A DNA stretch of 54,081 nucleotides. It comes from a virus. Every line of letters starts with the position of its first letter. Position 1 is the first letter of the stretch. The DNA is taken from the IMG/VR virus record IMGVR_UViG_3300023179_000140, positions 1 through 54,081 of that record; one strand, written 5' to 3'. The translations under genes were made by a program, and so were the position numbers. Positions 3,933 through 47,389 of this stretch are shown here, one piece after another. The notes under the pieces are model-generated. The model worked only from the letters and a program-made list of their open reading frames with translations, did no database searches and had not been told where the DNA came from.

Positions 3933-4275
3933 GCGCCTCATCAACTGCACCGCCCGCGAAATCCGCGCCTACCAGGCCGGGGGGCGGGTGCTGAGAAGGC
4001 GGGTGAAGCAGCAACCACAGCCAAATAAAGGCAAGGGGCTTGCTCCTGTACGGCCCTACCTCACATCAATGGCGAAGTGGACGTGGGTACTGGCTGCTAC
4101 CGGAATGGGCGATGGGACGACTGGGTTTTACTCCCCCTTCGGCTCCCCCGGCGATCGGCTAGTGTTAGTCCCGCGCGGGTGCCGAGGCCAGTATTGTTAC
4201 GAGGCCACCGTCCGCGCCGTCCGAGTTGAGCAGAGCGACGGCGTGTGGTGGTGGGTAGCGGAGGTGGAGGGATGA
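3916..4275 (+). CDS. Reduced ASCH-like phage protein
   Basis: 119 residues. The N-terminus (INCTAREIRAYQAGGRVLRRR followed by VKQQPQP) resembles the opening of phage ASCH-domain proteins (FS..MVRALLxGxKTQTRRxVKPQP). SPFGSPGDRLVLVPRG resembles their CPYGxPGDRLWVRE core, and the end (VRAVRVEQSDGVWWWVAEVEG) matches their closing strands. The family norm is longer and has a Trp-rich middle, so this is a reduced version. ASCH domains are thought to bind RNA or modified nucleotides; the function in phages is unproven. Confidence 0.68.
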   Translation: MANQTERLINCTAREIRAYQAGGRVLRRRVKQQPQPNKGKGLAPVRPYLTSMAKWTWVLAATGMGDGTTGFYSPFGSPGDRLVLVPRGCRGQYCYEATVRAVRVEQSDGVWWWVAEVEG

Positions 4276-5165
4276 AGGCACCGTTTCCATGGGCCGGCGG
4301 AAAATCACGGGTGGCCGCTGAAGTTTGGGACCGCTTCGGCGACGTGGCGAATTACGTGGAACCGTTTTTTGGTTCCGGCGCGGTGCTACTGAACCGTCCA
4401 ACCTCACCCGGCACAGAGACTATAAATGATCTCGATTGCATGGTGGCCAACTTCTGGCGGGCGCTTCAGCATGATCCTGATTCGGTAGCCTTCCACGCGG
4501 AGAATCCAGTCAACGAAGCAGACCAACACGCGCGGCACCTGTGGCTTTGTTCACAGGCCGAATTCCGCGAAAAGATGAAGGTAGACCCGGATTATCACGA
4601 TGTCAAGATCGCAGGATGGTGGGTATGGGGCCAATGTATTTGGATTGGTTCGGGGTGGTGTGCGGTGCAGCTTCCCCACCTTGGGGACGCGGGGAAGGGG
4701 GTACATCGTAAGCGTCCCCACCTTGGGAACGCGGAAGAACCGATCTACGCTTACATGCGTGAGCTTGCGGCGCGGCTGCGGCGCGTGCGTGTCTGCTGTG
4801 GCGATTGGAGCCGAGTTCTCGGGCCTTCTGTTACCTTCAAACACGGAATTACCGGAGTGTTCCTAGATCCGCCATACGCGGACACAGCAGGCCGGACGGC
4901 TGATCTGTACGCCTCGGACAGCTTAACCGTTGCGCACAACGTCCGAGAATGGGCCATTGCCAACGGCGATAACCGAGACCTGCGCATTGCGCTCTGCGGC
5001 TACGAAGGCGAGCACCAGATGCCGGATTCGTGGGCGTGCCTAGCATGGAAGGCGGCTGGCGGGTACGGCAACCAAGGCGCGGAAAACAAGAATGCGGCAC
5101 GTGAGCGCATTTGGTTTAGTCCGGCGTGTTTGAAACCGCAGGGTACCTTGTGGAGTGCGCAATGA
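4272..5165 (+). CDS. DNA adenine-N6 methyltransferase (D12 class)
   Basis: 297 residues. Motif X-like PFPWAGGKSRVA is at residues 4-15, the AdoMet-binding PFFGSGAVLL (FxGxG) at 31-40 and the catalytic DPPY at 199-202. This order (X, I, IV) matches Dam-type D12 enzymes that methylate adenine-N6. Residues 134-153 contain a repeated PHLGDA/PHLGNA unit; the underlying DNA repeats CCCACCTTGGG near 4676 and 4716. The start at 4272 gives an ATGA overlap and follows GGAGGG. Together with the C5 enzyme downstream it probably modifies phage DNA against host restriction. No cognate restriction gene is seen. Confidence 0.93.
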   Translation: MKAPFPWAGGKSRVAAEVWDRFGDVANYVEPFFGSGAVLLNRPTSPGTETINDLDCMVANFWRALQHDPDSVAFHAENPVNEADQHARHLWLCSQAEFREKMKVDPDYHDVKIAGWWVWGQCIWIGSGWCAVQLPHLGDAGKGVHRKRPHLGNAEEPIYAYMRELAARLRRVRVCCGDWSRVLGPSVTFKHGITGVFLDPPYADTAGRTADLYASDSLTVAHNVREWAIANGDNRDLRIALCGYEGEHQMPDSWACLAWKAAGGYGNQGAENKNAARERIWFSPACLKPQGTLWSAQ

Positions 5166-5371
5166 AATGGGGCTGGCAGCAGATCGACGCGAACAACTAC
5201 CGCTACGACAAAACATGGTCCGTCCAGCGAGACTTGGCCAGCGGCAAGTGGTACGCGATGCGGGACGGGAAGTACTGCTTGGCGGATTTTTCGGACGCGG
5301 GCGGTGCTATGCACGAAGCGGATCTACTGAGGGAGGCGGACAAGCTGTATGCGAAAACCGATAGCGATTGA
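5162..5371 (+). CDS. Small hypothetical protein between two methyltransferases
   Basis: 69 residues from ATG 5162 (ATGA overlap). Rich in aromatic residues (MKWGWQQIDANNYRYDKTW, GKWYAMRDGKYCLADF) with a helical acidic end. It lies between the two methyltransferase genes and overlaps the second by 23 bases. It resembles short Trp/Tyr-rich phage proteins of unknown role. It might be a small partner of either enzyme, but only position suggests this. Confidence 0.68.
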   Translation: MKWGWQQIDANNYRYDKTWSVQRDLASGKWYAMRDGKYCLADFSDAGGAMHEADLLREADKLYAKTDSD

Positions 5372-6251
5372 CTTGTTTTGCGGCCTCGGTGGTTGGTCTG
5401 AAGGCTTACTATCTCAGGGGTACGACGTGACAGGCTACGACATTGAGGCGCATGAATACGGCGACCAAAAGTATCCCGCTACGCTAGTTCTACGGGACGT
5501 GTTGACAATCCACGGCAGCGAGTTCAAGGATGCCACCCTCATCGTGGCGTCCCCGCCTTGCCAAGAGTACAGCTACATGGCCATGCCATTTAAGCGAGGC
5601 AAACAAATCGCGGCGGCGCTTCGAGGGCAAGGTGAATTTCCAGAGGGTTATACCGGATCTCGCACGGTTGAGCAACTCAACGCACTGTTCAACGCCTGTT
5701 TCCGTATCCAACGGGAGACATCCGAAACGACTGGGCATTACGTACCCATGGTTGTTGAAAACGTGAAAGGGGCGCAGCCGTGGGTGGGGAATGCGAAAGC
5801 GAACTTCGGATCGTTCTACCTGTGGGGCGACGTGGATATGGTGGGGGACAGGATTTACGCCGGAAATCTGAAAATGGGGAGCGGGGTTAAGGCGGAGCGA
5901 CGGGGGCAGAAGATGAACCCAGACGGCACAGCACACGGGCATGGATCATGGTTTAAGGTGGCGGATTCGAAGAATCGCGGGGTTAAGGTACTCAACTCTA
6001 CTAAGAACACGGGCGGCAGTTGGTTTGCAATCGGATCTCCTGGGCAGACTGAGTTGAGCATGAATCCAGTCAACGGCACAAAAGGGAATGGCTCGTGGTT
6101 TGGTAGGTACACAGAAGCAAAGGCAGATGGCCGTGGAGTATCAAGTCGATACACGTCAAGCAAATCCCACGCCCGCAAAGCCGCATCCGCGCAGATCGCA
6201 AAGATACCTTTTGCGCTGTCCGAGTACATAGCAAAGGCGTACCTCCCATAA
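5349..6251 (+). CDS. DNA cytosine-C5 methyltransferase
   Basis: 300 residues. Motif I DLFCGLGGWSEGL at 8-20, motif II-like GYDI at 29-32, catalytic motif IV SPPCQEYS with Cys71, motif VI VVEN at 136-139, and a C-terminal motif X-like helix (IAKIPFALSEYIAKAYL). The region where C5 enzymes keep the target-recognition domain (about 160-270) holds three spaced GSWF repeats (199-202, 223-226, 248-251) rather than a large recognition domain. AdoMet-dependent 5-methylcytosine formation is well supported; target sequence unknown. Likely anti-restriction. It closes the leftmost rightward operon. Confidence 0.92.
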   Translation: MRKPIAIDLFCGLGGWSEGLLSQGYDVTGYDIEAHEYGDQKYPATLVLRDVLTIHGSEFKDATLIVASPPCQEYSYMAMPFKRGKQIAAALRGQGEFPEGYTGSRTVEQLNALFNACFRIQRETSETTGHYVPMVVENVKGAQPWVGNAKANFGSFYLWGDVDMVGDRIYAGNLKMGSGVKAERRGQKMNPDGTAHGHGSWFKVADSKNRGVKVLNSTKNTGGSWFAIGSPGQTELSMNPVNGTKGNGSWFGRYTEAKADGRGVSSRYTSSKSHARKAASAQIAKIPFALSEYIAKAYLP

Positions 6252-15375: not shown

Positions 15376-18300
15376 TTATTTCTGTTTAGCCCTGCGCTCG
15401 GCAATCGCTTCCAGGACTTTATCGGTCAAAATCTTTTTCTCTTGGAATGGCTCAAGGATGGCGACCGCTTCGTCCTCGCTCTTTCCTTTAATCAGGCCGA
15501 GAAAATATTCCGCTCGCTCGTCGGCGCTCTTGTGAAGAAGGTATCGATCTGACTTGCTCAGTCCCGACTGTTCTCCCTGTACCATTTTAGCGATATAATC
15601 TTCTGTTTCCTCACTCATGGTGCCATTATCTAGGGCCTCAATCATGCGCCGCTCGCCCTCTACCCTGTCGTCCTTCCAAGCGTTGAACAATTCCCGCGCC
15701 ATCCGCATGTTCGGGGCCTTTTCTTTTGCGATGGTTTGCGACGCCTCGTCGATAGCCGCCATCTCGCGCTCGTCGGTCGCGCCGCCACGGGCTTGAAGCG
15801 CACGCCGGCCAAACGCTTGCGCAGTGGACTCGCCGCCGACCGGCACTTTCCGCAGGTAGTCGAGCACGGCATTATTGCCTGGAATGGCGTCAGCCACACC
15901 TTTGCGGGCTCGGTCCACGACGTTTAGGACCTGCGGTGCGACAGTGCCAAGGTGGCCCTTGATCATGTGGTCTACCTTCAACGGAGCCGCACCGATGGCA
16001 TCTCCGATCATCTGCGCCGTCCCGCTGGTGGAGTCGAAGCGCTGTTCGGATGTTGGGAGCGAAAGCATCCGCTGCGGAACGATATCACGGTTCGTGAAGA
16101 AATTCTTATTGACCGACACCTCAACGGCGGGCTTAGCTGTCATCGGCACAAACTGGCCCGCCATCTGTTCGCCGGTCCCGGAGATCGGGTTGAGATAGTT
16201 GTAGACGGCGGCAAGATATTCTTGGGCCTTTACTGGATCGCCGCCGTACTGCGCTTCGATGTTCCGGCGCACCAACGTGCCGACATCGCTGATCCCAGGA
16301 GCCATCGGTAGTTTAATCGCGTCGTATGTGCCTCTGCTGTTCTTCTTCGGATTCTCCGGCAACCAAATTAGAGACTTGTCTTTCTCCCACGGCTCAATAT
16401 CTTCCCACGCCTTCCGTTTCTCCGGCGTGCTGATATTGTGCAGTGTGGCGATAGCCACCGGGATCGCCACCGTCATAGCTGCTCTGGTCGCAAACCCCAC
16501 CGGGTCCTTGCGCATCGCGCTGATCGAACTTCGAGTACCCTGGATGCCAGCGTTGGCGTATGGGAATAGGACCATCAGGCCGCGCTTATAGTTGCCGCCC
16601 CGGTAAAAGTCGCCGGTGGCCTGGCGTGATGCCTTGGCGGCGGTAGCAGCGGCGTCTTGCTCTCCCATCCCTCGCTTGATCGCCTCAGCCTTGGCGATGC
16701 GGTATGCCTGCATGCGGGTCATGTCTTCCGTCATGCCGATGAAGTTCTCGACATCGCGCCAACCGCCGCGAAGGGCGTTTGTGACGCGGCTTGTGCCGGA
16801 CTCAAAACGATGCGTGCGCGCCACGCTCTGATTCGGAAGCGTGGACTCATCCCGAAATACATTCCCGAGGGTGTTGTATTTCTGAGCCCGGATGTCGCGC
16901 ACCCCAAGGAGCGGTTGCTCCCGGTACAGGTCGAACGAGTTGCCGCCGCCACCGTTCCAAACCATCTCGTCGTACATGCCGTTGCGGGCGGAGACGTAGT
17001 TGTCGCCCACATCGCGGATCGCCTGAAGCGTGGCCTTAGCAATATCCATGTGGATGCCGGTGAGATCACCGATCTTTCCGGCTATCGACTTGGACCCTGG
17101 ATTCGCCTTCTCCGCCATGCGGTCCACGCTTATTTGGTTCAAGTGCCGCGTCGCTTGGTCGCGCGTGAAATTGTATAGCGCGAATATCGGATTGATGCCA
17201 GTGGTACCGACCTTGAACGCCCGCACCGCCCCGCCAAGAATCTGCTGAAGCAAGCCCATGCCCTGCGCGTCCAAACTCTTGGCTGCCCGAACGTACTCAA
17301 CCGGCGCGGCAACGTGCTGGGCGTTGCCGTTCTCAAGGTAGGTGAAGTACTGCTCCGGCTTCATCTTCTCGGCAGTCTTTGCGGAAATGCGGCGGATGAA
17401 CTTGTCGCCACCGGGAAGGTCGCCATATTGCGCGGCAGTGCGGGCGGCTTCGTTCTGCGCCGCCTCCCGGATCACTTGGTTGGTTTTTTTGAGAAGGTTC
17501 TCTAGCGGGCTATCAATCGCCAGTTTGTCTGAGCCCTTGAGCTTTTGAATGACATTCGTGGACGACTTGCTGGCCGTCGCGCGCGTGTTCTGAAACGGCT
17601 CCACCCCTTCCGGCATAATGCGGTGAAGATCGGCGTAGTCTGGATACATCTTTCGGAGATTGTCAATTTCTGCCTGACTTTTTATCCCCGACTGCACCAT
17701 CATATCCTCAAGCGCGGTGACGTGATTCTTGACGGCATCGAGATGCTGCTGGTACTTCGGCGTGAACTCAGCGATAAGCGCGTCGTCCTTCAGGATTTCA
17801 TCCGGTTCTCGGCCCAACTCAATCTGTCCGCGCTCCTCCAGCCGCGCGATCTCTTTCATCGCTCGCTCGGCGGCGGTCTTGCTCCCTGATTGCTTTGCCG
17901 CAGCGTAGGATGTTTTGGCAGCGGCAAGGTCAGCCGCGTTCTGCGCATTCGTGCGGTCAATCTCAGCGGCTCGACGGGCCAGCAAAAGCCGGTCGAACCC
18001 CTCCACGTCCATCTGCGTCGGCAAGTTTTGGATGGCCTTCGTCAGTCCGGTCTTCTTGGCGAAGACTCCGGCGCGGGAGTTGGCTCGATAGACGTTCGCT
18101 ACCGCCCGATCAAATTCCATGCTGGGGCGAATGGAGTAGGTGTCATTGTCGCCTTTGATGATCTCCCGGTGAACGTCTTCCATGGGAGCTATCGCGTCCA
18201 CCAAATCCGGCCGCAATCCATGCCAGTACAACTGAAGCAGCGACGGCTTAGACGCTTGCATTGCCCGTCGTGCGGCCTCTCGCTTGGCCACCTGTTCGGA

Positions 18301-20436
18301 GACGTGTAGTTCAGACGGCGTGAGCGGCCTGCCGGGATTGGCGAACGGCTTCCACGAACCAGCCTCGCTGCTGCGCCGGTTGTACTTGGCGCGGGCCTCT
18401 CGCCGTGCCTTCGGGTCCTGCGATGACATGCCGTCAATAATGGCGTTATCTTGCGGCGATAGTGTGTCCGGGTCCATGCCCAGCGTGCGGGCGATCTTGG
18501 CGCGTGCGGCGGCTCGCTGTGCTAATGGATCGGCTGGGGCTGGGGCGGCTGGTTTGGGTTGCGGAGCCTGGGGAGCGGCGGAGCCAGGCACGCCTTTATC
18601 CGTAGACCACGACACGCCGATATAGGTTCGGCCATCACCGTCGGTCACCATCTGATCACGCTTATAATCGTCAAGTAGGGACGGAGCGTCGTGTTCGTGC
18701 AACACAATATCGCCATTACGGCTTGCTTCGAGCATGGCGGCGTCAAAGCGGTCCTTTGGCAGACCAGAAGCCGCCCTGACATCCTCAACCAGCACCGCTT
18801 CTCCAACTCGCCCAGAAGCACCGCGCATGGCGTTCCGGACGATTTGGCTGTCGGGGAGGTTGGGGGATGGAGGCGGCTCCGTAGTTGGCGGCTGTGGCGC
18901 TTCCACGGCACGCTCCGCAACCGGCGCGGGCGGCGCTACCTCATGGGCATCTCCTGATGCTTGTCTGAGTTCGCTATTGACCCGATTTATAGCCCTTGAT
19001 CCATCTGCGCTCAGGAGATCTCCTTGAGTTGGCTTGATCGCATACCCATCTTTAGCCGCCTGCTTTATAAGAGATGAGCCAATTCCCGTTCTTTGGAACT
19101 CAGGCCTGACCGCAAGGTGAAGTATTCCACCGTCCATATTGCCCCTATACGGGCTATCCATTTTGATCGTTCCAACTACCTTTAATTCTCCAGATTGATC
19201 TCTAAACGCGGCGTAATAGTTACCTGGGGATGGGCTGGCCACAGGTTCTTCTTTAGGCGTCCACGGTCTAGTCCTGAAAATCTCTATTCCGTCTGGCCTA
19301 CCTAACGACGAAACTTGTTCGGAGTTTCCATCAATAACATGCCATGTATTCCCGTATCCAGAGTGTTTTTCTAAATATCGACTGCCGAGATTGTCGGTAT
19401 TGGGTCTGTAGTCGCCAACAGGCTGAACCGGCGCAACCTCCGGCGCAGGCGGCAACTCCATCGGAGCCTCCACCACCTTCGCCACTTTGTCGTAATTCTC
19501 CAGCAGCTTCGCCGTGCGGTCGTTGCCTTCAGCCACCTGTTCCGCAAACGGAGGCCTCGGCGTGGCAGGCGCAGTAACCCCTTCCTGCGTCGGCATCAGC
19601 GTCTTCGGCAACTCAAACCGATTCATCCGCGCCTGAGAGCCTTCTGCCGCCTCATTGACCATCTCTCGCCCTTGCTGGCGGGTACGGCGGTTTTCTCCCA
19701 GGCCATAGCCGATATCCATGGCCGCATCCATGTCACCAAGGATGCGTGGTCGCATGCGGGCCTGAACCTGCGGCGAAGTGCGGAAGTCTCGTACAGCGCC
19801 TTTTGCACCGAGCACGCCCAGCGCCGTCGTCCCGAGTAACTCGGTGACTGCCTGTGCCTTGTCGCCTGATGTCGTATTCTCGTCGGAGAACACATCCCTG
19901 ACACCCTTGACCTGCTCCGGCAGCGTCATCAACTGCTCGCCGGTAAACGCCGCGCCAATGCCCGCTTGGACCAGCTTGGGAGCCATGCCGATACCAGTGG
20001 CCATTGCAGCATTCAATGGGTTTATATTGCTGTTGATAAGATTGCCGACACCCCTTGCCGCGCCTTCAATTGCGCTCCCGCCTGTTTCCGCAAGATAATC
20101 TTTGACCCGTCTTTTAACCGGCTCGGTCTTCCATGAGCCACCGCCAACTTCAAGAGATCCAATGTTAGGTGCCCCGCCTTCGAGCGCAACATTGTCAAAA
20201 GTTGGAGTGGTGGCGAAGTCCTTCACCTTCTCCCACGTCGTCTTTTCGGCGCTCGTGACGCCGGGCATCCGCAATGCCCGGTTGAAATCCTGCGCTGGCG
20301 TGGAGGTTGGCTTGACCGTGGGCGCGACGACGTTGGGGAGTGGTGCGACCGAGCGCTTAGGCGCGGCGTATTCTTCCCACGGCTTAGGGCCGGAGTCTGT
20401 CGTTGTTGCGTATTCTTCCCACGGTCCCGCTGGCAT
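15376..20436 (-). CDS. Giant internal virion/ejection protein with GNAT domain
   Basis: 1,686 residues, the largest gene. The N-terminus repeats PWEEYA (residues 5-10 and 19-24), a tag seen in phage internal proteins. About 397-490 is a GNAT acetyltransferase domain (YYAAFRDQSGELKVVGTI, then the acetyl-CoA loop in LAVRPEFQRTGIGSSLIKQA). Long helical regions follow. About 1080-1400 looks like an LPD38-type polyvalent segment (INPIFALYNFTRDQATRHL, PVGFATRAAMTVAIPVAIA, DIEPWEKDKSLIWLPENP). The C-terminus is a charged coil. Such polyvalent proteins are carried in the head and injected with DNA; the GNAT may modify a host target early. Neighbours are also internal-type proteins. Confidence 0.85.
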   Translation of the reverse strand: MPAGPWEEYATTTDSGPKPWEEYAAPKRSVAPLPNVVAPTVKPTSTPAQDFNRALRMPGVTSAEKTTWEKVKDFATTPTFDNVALEGGAPNIGSLEVGGGSWKTEPVKRRVKDYLAETGGSAIEGAARGVGNLINSNINPLNAAMATGIGMAPKLVQAGIGAAFTGEQLMTLPEQVKGVRDVFSDENTTSGDKAQAVTELLGTTALGVLGAKGAVRDFRTSPQVQARMRPRILGDMDAAMDIGYGLGENRRTRQQGREMVNEAAEGSQARMNRFELPKTLMPTQEGVTAPATPRPPFAEQVAEGNDRTAKLLENYDKVAKVVEAPMELPPAPEVAPVQPVGDYRPNTDNLGSRYLEKHSGYGNTWHVIDGNSEQVSSLGRPDGIEIFRTRPWTPKEEPVASPSPGNYYAAFRDQSGELKVVGTIKMDSPYRGNMDGGILHLAVRPEFQRTGIGSSLIKQAAKDGYAIKPTQGDLLSADGSRAINRVNSELRQASGDAHEVAPPAPVAERAVEAPQPPTTEPPPSPNLPDSQIVRNAMRGASGRVGEAVLVEDVRAASGLPKDRFDAAMLEASRNGDIVLHEHDAPSLLDDYKRDQMVTDGDGRTYIGVSWSTDKGVPGSAAPQAPQPKPAAPAPADPLAQRAAARAKIARTLGMDPDTLSPQDNAIIDGMSSQDPKARREARAKYNRRSSEAGSWKPFANPGRPLTPSELHVSEQVAKREAARRAMQASKPSLLQLYWHGLRPDLVDAIAPMEDVHREIIKGDNDTYSIRPSMEFDRAVANVYRANSRAGVFAKKTGLTKAIQNLPTQMDVEGFDRLLLARRAAEIDRTNAQNAADLAAAKTSYAAAKQSGSKTAAERAMKEIARLEERGQIELGREPDEILKDDALIAEFTPKYQQHLDAVKNHVTALEDMMVQSGIKSQAEIDNLRKMYPDYADLHRIMPEGVEPFQNTRATASKSSTNVIQKLKGSDKLAIDSPLENLLKKTNQVIREAAQNEAARTAAQYGDLPGGDKFIRRISAKTAEKMKPEQYFTYLENGNAQHVAAPVEYVRAAKSLDAQGMGLLQQILGGAVRAFKVGTTGINPIFALYNFTRDQATRHLNQISVDRMAEKANPGSKSIAGKIGDLTGIHMDIAKATLQAIRDVGDNYVSARNGMYDEMVWNGGGGNSFDLYREQPLLGVRDIRAQKYNTLGNVFRDESTLPNQSVARTHRFESGTSRVTNALRGGWRDVENFIGMTEDMTRMQAYRIAKAEAIKRGMGEQDAAATAAKASRQATGDFYRGGNYKRGLMVLFPYANAGIQGTRSSISAMRKDPVGFATRAAMTVAIPVAIATLHNISTPEKRKAWEDIEPWEKDKSLIWLPENPKKNSRGTYDAIKLPMAPGISDVGTLVRRNIEAQYGGDPVKAQEYLAAVYNYLNPISGTGEQMAGQFVPMTAKPAVEVSVNKNFFTNRDIVPQRMLSLPTSEQRFDSTSGTAQMIGDAIGAAPLKVDHMIKGHLGTVAPQVLNVVDRARKGVADAIPGNNAVLDYLRKVPVGGESTAQAFGRRALQARGGATDEREMAAIDEASQTIAKEKAPNMRMARELFNAWKDDRVEGERRMIEALDNGTMSEETEDYIAKMVQGEQSGLSKSDRYLLHKSADERAEYFLGLIKGKSEDEAVAILEPFQEKKILTDKVLEAIAERRAKQK

Positions 20437-45478: not shown

Positions 45479-45626
45479 AATCTGCAAACAGTGCAAGTAT
45501 AAAGGGCCTATGGAGGAGTTCTCGCGCTTCAACCCGCATCTCTGCTGGGCTTGCTGTGACCAGCCGTTCACCGGCACGCCGTCCACGAACCCGGTTCATT
45601 TGCCGGGGTGGATGTGGGAGAAGTGA
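45450..45626 (+). CDS. Small zinc-ribbon protein (58 aa)
   Basis: 58 residues from ATG 45450 with GGGAGG upstream. It contains KICKQCKYKGPMEEFSRFNP and LCWACCDQPF, two Cys pairs about 18 residues apart, a ribbon-like site. The stop TGA (45624-45626) immediately precedes the GTG start of the helicase. It could act with the helicase, but only position suggests it. Confidence 0.68.
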   Translation: MSRWRTNGTKICKQCKYKGPMEEFSRFNPHLCWACCDQPFTGTPSTNPVHLPGWMWEK

Positions 45627-47036
45627 GTGAGCCGCATCCAAGTAGTCTCCCAGGTCGGCATCACCTCCATCGGCTTCGACGAGGCCAGGTTACACGTTGA
45701 CATCGACATGCGACCGACCGACTCAGAGGGTGATTGGCTTCAGCGCCGGGGCCGGTGCGGGCGGGCATACCCAGCTATCAACGGGAACCGGGACTACCAG
45801 GAAACCGGCATTGAGGCGATGCGGCGAGAGCTTGCGGCAAAGCGAAACCCGGTCTATGTGCTCGGGTGTGGCGGCGGCAAGAGCTATATGGCTGGGATGG
45901 TTGCGGCGGCGGCCGGAGCGAAAGGACGCAGCGTCGGGCTGCTTACCGTGCGGCGGGTTTTGGTGGACGACATCAGCAATCGGTTTTCGGCAATGGGCGT
46001 CCAGCATGGTGTCATTATGGCTGGCCGACAGGACAACGAGCACCGCTCGAAGGTCGCCAGCGCCCACACGGTCGCAGCACGCAATCTGACGCTAAACGTT
46101 GACGTATTGTTCGTAGACGAGGGGCATCAATACGTTGCCGGTGAATTCCGCGCCATTCTTGATCGGCACGCCAATATTCCCCGTGTCATCCTCACGGCGA
46201 CTCCGATCCGGGCAGACGGGCTGGGGCTTGGTCGTATCGCCGACTCGATCATCCTGGGGCCGACGACGCAGGAGTTGATCAACCGTGGCTTCCTTGTGCC
46301 TACACGAATCTTTTGCCGCCACGCTCCCGACGTGTCGCAGCTACGGCGCAACAGTTCGGGAGAGTTCAATGAACGTGAGAACGAAGAGGTGATGGGCCGG
46401 TCTGAAATCGTCGGCGATTGCGTGAAGGAGTGGTTGTACCGGGCTAGGAATTTGCCGACCATCGTTCACGCCGTGTCCATTAAGCACTCTCTGGCCATCG
46501 TCAAGCGCTTCCAGGGCGCTGGTGTCAATGCGGTTCACGTGGACGCTGATACGCCGGACGATGAGCGCAAGCGAGTCTTCGACGATATGTGCCGCGATGC
46601 GCCACCGAAGAAGCACAGCCTGTTGATTGACTTGGCCGGCAACAGTTTACGATTTGGATTTCCGGAAGATCATCGCGAATGGTCGCTTGACGACTGGGAC
46701 CCAACGGAGCCCAAGCCTGCGGCCCTCGCCATTCGCCGCTGCGAGCAGTGCTGGTGCGTCTTTCGCACAACGAAGCCGGAATGTCCACAATGCGGCGATC
46801 CGTATGTCCCGACGCAACGGGAGATCAAAGAGCGAAAAGCGGAACTTGTCGAGCGGCAGCGAGAGGCGAAAGACGCCGCCGTTGAACGCTGGCGCAAGTC
46901 GCAAGGCGACGACGAGCGGCGGGCGCGGTACATGGCGCTGGTTGAAAAGGCGAGGACGATGGGATACAAACCGAACTGGGCGGCTGTTATGCTGAACAAG
47001 ACAACCGGCCATTGGCCAAAGAAAGAGTGGAAATGA
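45627..47036 (+). CDS. SF2 (RadD/DEAD-like) helicase with reordered motifs
   Basis: 469 residues from GTG 45627 (GGGAG at 45616-45620; a stop in frame just before it prevents a longer start). Motif V-like SQVGITSIGFDEARLHVDID (8-27) and motif VI QRRGRCGR (39-46) lie first. Then come RDYQ (55-58), Walker A GCGGGKS (80-86), DEGH (164-167), TATP (190-193) and motif IV-like TIVHAVSIKHS (278-288). In homologues V/VI should follow KRVFDDM (316-321), but here CRDAPPKKHSLLIDLAGNSL comes next. The protein ends with a zinc finger (Cys372, Cys375, Cys386, Cys389) and a charged helix. Its neighbours are nuclease and primase genes. Activity of this layout is untested. Confidence 0.88.
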   Translation: MSRIQVVSQVGITSIGFDEARLHVDIDMRPTDSEGDWLQRRGRCGRAYPAINGNRDYQETGIEAMRRELAAKRNPVYVLGCGGGKSYMAGMVAAAAGAKGRSVGLLTVRRVLVDDISNRFSAMGVQHGVIMAGRQDNEHRSKVASAHTVAARNLTLNVDVLFVDEGHQYVAGEFRAILDRHANIPRVILTATPIRADGLGLGRIADSIILGPTTQELINRGFLVPTRIFCRHAPDVSQLRRNSSGEFNERENEEVMGRSEIVGDCVKEWLYRARNLPTIVHAVSIKHSLAIVKRFQGAGVNAVHVDADTPDDERKRVFDDMCRDAPPKKHSLLIDLAGNSLRFGFPEDHREWSLDDWDPTEPKPAALAIRRCEQCWCVFRTTKPECPQCGDPYVPTQREIKERKAELVERQREAKDAAVERWRKSQGDDERRARYMALVEKARTMGYKPNWAAVMLNKTTGHWPKKEWK

Positions 47037-47389
47037 GCGCAAGCACCGACCTTACCAACCGGCTGATGTTGGCGATCCAAGAGTCAGTTCCTGGATGCCG
47101 TATCTGGCGGCAGAATACTGGAGTTGCGTACCCGATATCCATGGTTGACGGCGGCCGGCTCAAGCCAAACGCGAGGCCGGTGAAGTATGGAGTACCGGGC
47201 GTGCCGGATATTATCGGCGTGCTGCCGGATGGCCGGTGGCTGGGGGTCGAGGTCAAGGTTGGCCGGGATAAGCAGAGCGAGCAGCAGCTCAACTTTCAGT
47301 CAATGCTAGAGCAGCGAGGTGGCGTCTATGTCGTCGCCCGTGACCTCGACACCGCCGTGGCTGAGGTTAAGCGGCGGGTGTGCAAGTAA
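47033..47389 (+). CDS. VRR-NUC domain nuclease
   Basis: 118 residues, ATGA start. GVPDIIGVLPDGRWLGVEVK carries the Asp and Glu-x-Lys of the PD-(D/E)xK VRR-NUC core, with QSEQQLNFQSMLEQRGGVYV and VARDLDTAVAEVKRR following, the usual order. Phage VRR-NUC proteins are thought to be branched-DNA nucleases or Holliday junction resolvases. It directly follows the helicase and probably acts in replication or recombination. Confidence 0.85.
   Translation: MSASTDLTNRLMLAIQESVPGCRIWRQNTGVAYPISMVDGGRLKPNARPVKYGVPGVPDIIGVLPDGRWLGVEVKVGRDKQSEQQLNFQSMLEQRGGVYVVARDLDTAVAEVKRRVCK

Follow-up and report, generated by a model that had tools for sequence, protein, structure and literature searches.

The window analysed here, 54,081 bases long, is one virus record of IMG/VR. 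It comes from a tailed phage that is uncultured and carries terminase, tail and portal-like genes. The nearest kin that we found was locus L024 (IMGVR_UViG_3300046394_000008), a short contig without the helicase, whose terminase is 59% identical. For the structural block of the phage no other relative was found; the genes there are collinear with those of L024 at 66-69% DNA identity. Nearly all of the other proteins in the window had a weak family match or none. A 1686-aa protein on the minus strand (15376-20436) contains an LPD38 (large polyvalent protein) domain and a GNAT acetyltransferase-like stretch, and is probably an injected or virion-associated multidomain protein. Adjacent D12 adenine and C5 cytosine DNA methyltransferase genes lie on the plus strand (4245-5165 and 5349-6251); Pfam covers only the N-terminal quarter of each model, whereas the later motifs, DPPY and PPCQ, can be seen in the translation.

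The gene of interest is an ORF of 469 aa on the plus strand (45627-47036), with a GTG start immediately 3′ of an in-frame TGA (45624-45626) and a likely Shine-Dalgarno sequence, GGGAG, read from the sequence on the same strand 6 bases before the GTG (45616-45620). Its product matched the phrog_16 DNA helicases (E 1.8e-56) and a profile that we built from six normal-order phage relatives (E 7.8e-108), and was significant over the ATPase core. Escherichia coli RadD was matched weakly, and the RadD equivalog NCBIfam NF053632 scored 50.9 bits, far below its cut-off of 720 bits. The full set of Q motif, Walker A, DExH, TATP, motif V and motif VI is present; however, the order differs from the canonical Q-I-II-III-IV-V-VI, with motifs V-VI preceding Q-I-II-III-IV. 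Judged by its sequence, the gene is a permuted variant of the phrog_16 phage DNA helicases (RadD-like SF2) and not a regular member.

Directly downstream on the plus strand is a VRR-NUC nuclease gene (47033-47389; PF08774 above its cut-off), followed by a primase-like gene. Among the matches listed, 7 of 120 normal loci likewise have a VRR-NUC gene downstream of the helicase and on its strand. These two neighbours therefore point to a role in replication or recombination, as for normal phrog_16 helicases.

To resolve the order of the parts, the protein was searched with the six-relative profile with all filters off. It aligned in three pieces: residues 2-49 to profile positions 276-323 (conditional E 3.6e-9; 1.2e-10 for this block alone), residues 55-324 to positions 5-276 (the body; E 1.7e-76) and residues 323-458 to positions 320-455 (the tail). 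Together the pieces cover the family without a gap and hardly overlap, so that nothing has been lost or duplicated. The block was still recovered when searched among all ORFs of the window (i-E 4.7e-6), and an independent phrog_16 search of the record's DNA placed positions 540-588 upstream of 274-538. Positions 70-109 of the PF00271 Helicase_C profile fell on residues 6-47 with 21.1 bits, slightly below the curated cut-off of 23.5 bits. No second copy or fragment of the helicase scored above the inclusion threshold among all ORFs of the window.

The moved block (45630-45773, plus strand) carries motif V (G16-F17-D18) and motif VI (Q39-RRGRCG-R46) and aligns to residues 300-346 of RadD; R46 is the arginine finger by equivalence to RadD R343, whose role has been described (PMC9821108). 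It is followed on the same strand by a new linker, AINGN (residues 50-54, 45774-45788), which lies between the profile pieces and joins motif VI to the Q motif. The body (45789-46598, plus strand) contains RDYQ (residues 55-58, the Q motif), GCGGGKS (80-86, Walker A), DEGH (164-167), TATP (190-193) and the first part of RecA domain 2. At the place which the block occupies in relatives, around 50 residues are absent and the gap is closed by CRDAPP (residues 322-327, 46590-46607, plus strand). The tail (46608-47036, plus strand) comprises the last RecA2 strand (DLAGN), a zinc ribbon of four invariant cysteines (C372, C375, C386 and C389) and C-terminal helices.

In the initial annotation, motifs V-VI preceded the Q motif and Walker A, and both the three-piece alignment and the phrog_16 search bear this out; the alignment to RadD and phage SF2 helicases that it had proposed confirmed the shifted block. 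Its claim that the block is missing at the old site also stands, while the coordinates needed correction: the segment KRVFDDMCRDAPPKKHSLLI extends from about K315 to I334 rather than over 316-330, and the gap itself from C322 to P327. That the block truly opens the protein, as it had argued, is supported by the upstream in-frame stop, the GGGAG before the GTG and the frame-0 coding bias. It had also described a segment transposition rather than a plain circular permutation, and we agree. A plain circular permutation was rejected since the tail (profile 320-455) remains last, and no single cut-and-rejoin yields the observed order because the tail is still at the C-terminus. As read from these alignments, a segment of 48 residues that bears motifs V and VI has left the interior of RecA domain 2 and become N-terminal.

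We searched for other genes sharing this order. All 124 helicase ORFs examined in IMG/VR, taken from the matches listed and two other scans, had the normal order with the block in place; the C-terminal motif pattern occurs there in at least 120 loci, which are a sample. Relatives that were mapped later were every one in normal order, as were those in 396 genomes from the phylum of an Acidobacteria bin and in one other bacterial genome. In the phage collection, 755 records held relatives, all at < 60% identity, with the order read individually in a minority. A query across the new adjacency gave no record in that collection with ≥ 80% coverage, and its two longest partial matches were in normal order. 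We also scanned with patterns, two of which required the Q motif to come after motif VI, while another described the closed gap and a further one the unusual LQR form of motif VI. These revealed no second case; it should be noted that they fix some codons, so that part of any shuffled-order family would escape. Several apparent matches to the shuffled order (L022, L195-L199, Variovorax phage VPv64 L233 and Providencia phage PSTCR4 L234) all proved to be normal. Related-locus searches with the helicase, the primase or alignment A1 as query returned no matches.

The proposed search for relatives sharing the order thus found none among those examined. A normal-order relative with near-identical flanking DNA, which had been named as the sign of an assembly error, was not found either, nor was any near-identical relative of either order; the nearest normal-order ones have about 31-36% body identity, and the searches may omit very near records. 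We know of no natural SF2 protein with motifs V-VI before the Q motif, and our searches of open literature for permuted helicases, NTPases and proteins turned up no such SF2 case, judging by titles and abstracts. The permutation is real in the sequence of one uncultured contig and is unmatched in everything searched.

We also compared conservation in the three parts. The block has a mean identity to relatives of 38%, vs 40 ± 5% in normal pairs of similar body divergence. Strongly conserved columns were kept at 9 of 10 positions in the block, 34 of 46 in the body and 23 of 30 in the tail; the body value is below the family mean of 0.89 but within the spread, normal relatives averaging about 0.9 with wide variation. 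In motif V the common glutamate is replaced by isoleucine (E to I). R46 and the four cysteines are intact, as are the Q motif, Walker A, DEGH, TATP and motif VI, and codon scores were positive in frame 0, which was the best frame in block, body and tail alike. There is no stop or frameshift, every join is in frame and all catalytic residues are kept. The conservation is compatible with a protein that works or with a rearrangement too young to have decayed. Normal relatives (IMG/VR loci L064-L183) are of two kinds, with a motif V-VI block of 48 or 55 residues; in the 55-residue kind the extra residues lie between motif V and the next strand, and the window's block is of the 48-residue kind.

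The structure was predicted with AlphaFold2 using fragment rows for body, block and tail (mean pLDDT 82, pTM 0.65). In the model the block forms strands at 6-9 and 24-27 and a helix at 34-42 with moderate confidence (pLDDT approximately 55-83), the tail strand at 331-335 is formed and all expected elements are present in the rest of the protein; the linker region, residues 45-51, has pLDDT < 50. The best fold matches in the PDB were crystal structures of RadD (Foldseek, sequential alignments). In RadD, R343 of motif VI contacts the ATP phosphates and its replacement, R343A, abolishes ATPase activity (PMC9821108), while motif Q forms the adenine groove (PMC9049331). The equivalent R46 lies here nine residues before the Q motif.

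These data suggest how the rearranged protein may work. A 48-residue strand-strand-helix unit of RecA domain 2 would have been placed behind the start codon and its old site closed in frame. In a parallel sheet, such a unit is expected to enter and leave at one and the same edge, and therefore its excision and the closure of the gap by CRDAPP are topologically reasonable. Residues 55-324 would provide the Q motif, Walker A and DEGH, and the N-terminal unit would fold back into the gap in RecA domain 2, as the initial annotation had suggested, supplying the arginine finger R46. The AINGN linker would then cross the ATP cleft, since in RadD a single ATP is contacted by the equivalents of both R46 and the Q motif. 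A short linker is plausible there because the family fold already brings the new chain neighbours together at one ATP. This predicts a second tether between the lobes, which may limit their opening. The protein probably still acts as a DNA-dependent ATPase or translocase. We give about even odds to the full picture of a working, non-circularly permuted SF2 ATPase whose RecA domain 2 is completed from outside by an N-terminal strand-strand-helix, whose arginine finger precedes the Q motif by nine residues and whose two lobes have two covalent connections spanning the ATP cleft.

For the origin of the gene, we lean modestly towards a natural non-circular permutation of a phage RadD-like (phrog_16) SF2 ATPase of a replication or repair module, which is probably active. 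This is favoured by the complete tiling, block conservation, coding bias, intact motifs, predicted strands and helix of the block, the RadD fold match and the ATP contacts of R343 and motif Q known from RadD, and is held back by the single contig, the want of a second case and the 34 of 46 conserved columns in the body. A less probable reading, which still carries appreciable weight, is that the rearrangement is real but recent and broke the helicase, leaving a young pseudogene or a gene being lost: no relative has the same order, the body is slightly below average in conservation and motif V lacks the common glutamate, but against decay the reading frame is free of stops and frameshifts behind a Shine-Dalgarno start, with catalytic residues all kept and all joins in frame. 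That the order is an artefact of the contig or library, the real phage having the normal order, seems unlikely. The evidence is one metagenomic contig from an uncultured phage with no close relative for comparison; however, three independent false joins would be required, all in frame, and a collapsed duplication would, we reason, not give the body-to-tail join, while the structural genes are collinear with those of L024. No direct repeat of ≥ 12 bases was found between the junctions, the longest word shared near the joins (within 60 bases) being 9 bases, so assembly via repeats was rejected and an assembly slip is less likely. Very improbably, no segment was moved, and the block at the N-terminus was instead taken up from a different helicase while the gene's own block was deleted separately. 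Moved and borrowed blocks look alike at this distance, which makes this formally possible, but the block is of the 48-residue type found in many relatives of the body, its divergence is as expected for the same lineage and its coverage exactly equals the missing part.

If the permutation is natural, the DNA event behind it was possibly a partial duplication followed by deletions. A partial tandem duplication of body and block, with later loss of the first body and the second block, is one reading and would leave a working gene at each step. A match to TG(A/T)GCCGC (7 of 8) lies left of both the start-to-block and body-to-tail joins, with a chance of approximately 0.6% per pair with shifts allowed, a figure which is weaker after counting the choices made; this similarity is at most a hint of a deletion by microhomology. 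The block also shares 9 bases, CTTCGACGA, with a site just upstream of the gap, a match judged to be chance.

SF1 and SF2 motors are recognised by a fixed motif order, on which annotation depends. If the protein is active, a RecA lobe can be built from non-neighbouring segments, the gene would show a route by which phage genes pass between chain topologies, and the protein would be a natural motor with two tethers, allowing a direct test of how its lobes open as ATP is turned over. If it is inactive, the rearrangement has been caught early.

Compared with known systems, the gene is closest to the normal-order phrog_16 helicases, such as gp02 of Bdellovibrio phage phi1422 and IMG/VR loci L153, L091 and L170. 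It shares with them the same body, block, tail, motifs, zinc ribbon and size and, with some of them, the VRR-NUC neighbour; however, their motif V-VI block lies between body and tail whereas here it is N-terminal, and body identity is only about 31-36%. E. coli RadD/YejH (PDB 6jde, 7r7j, 8h5y and 8h5z), the best fold match, has in common with it the SF2 core, the Q motif and the equivalent of the arginine finger, but has the normal order and is a larger protein that includes two zinc fingers and a C-terminal domain (PMC9049331). The circularly permuted P-loop GTPases YlqF/YawG/YqeH and cpRAS are a further natural example in which, as here, NTPase motifs are reordered around one nucleotide site (PMC2430557). 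The GTPase rearrangements are circular and characterise whole families, whereas here a segment has been transposed internally within a two-lobe SF2 ATPase, as seen in one case.
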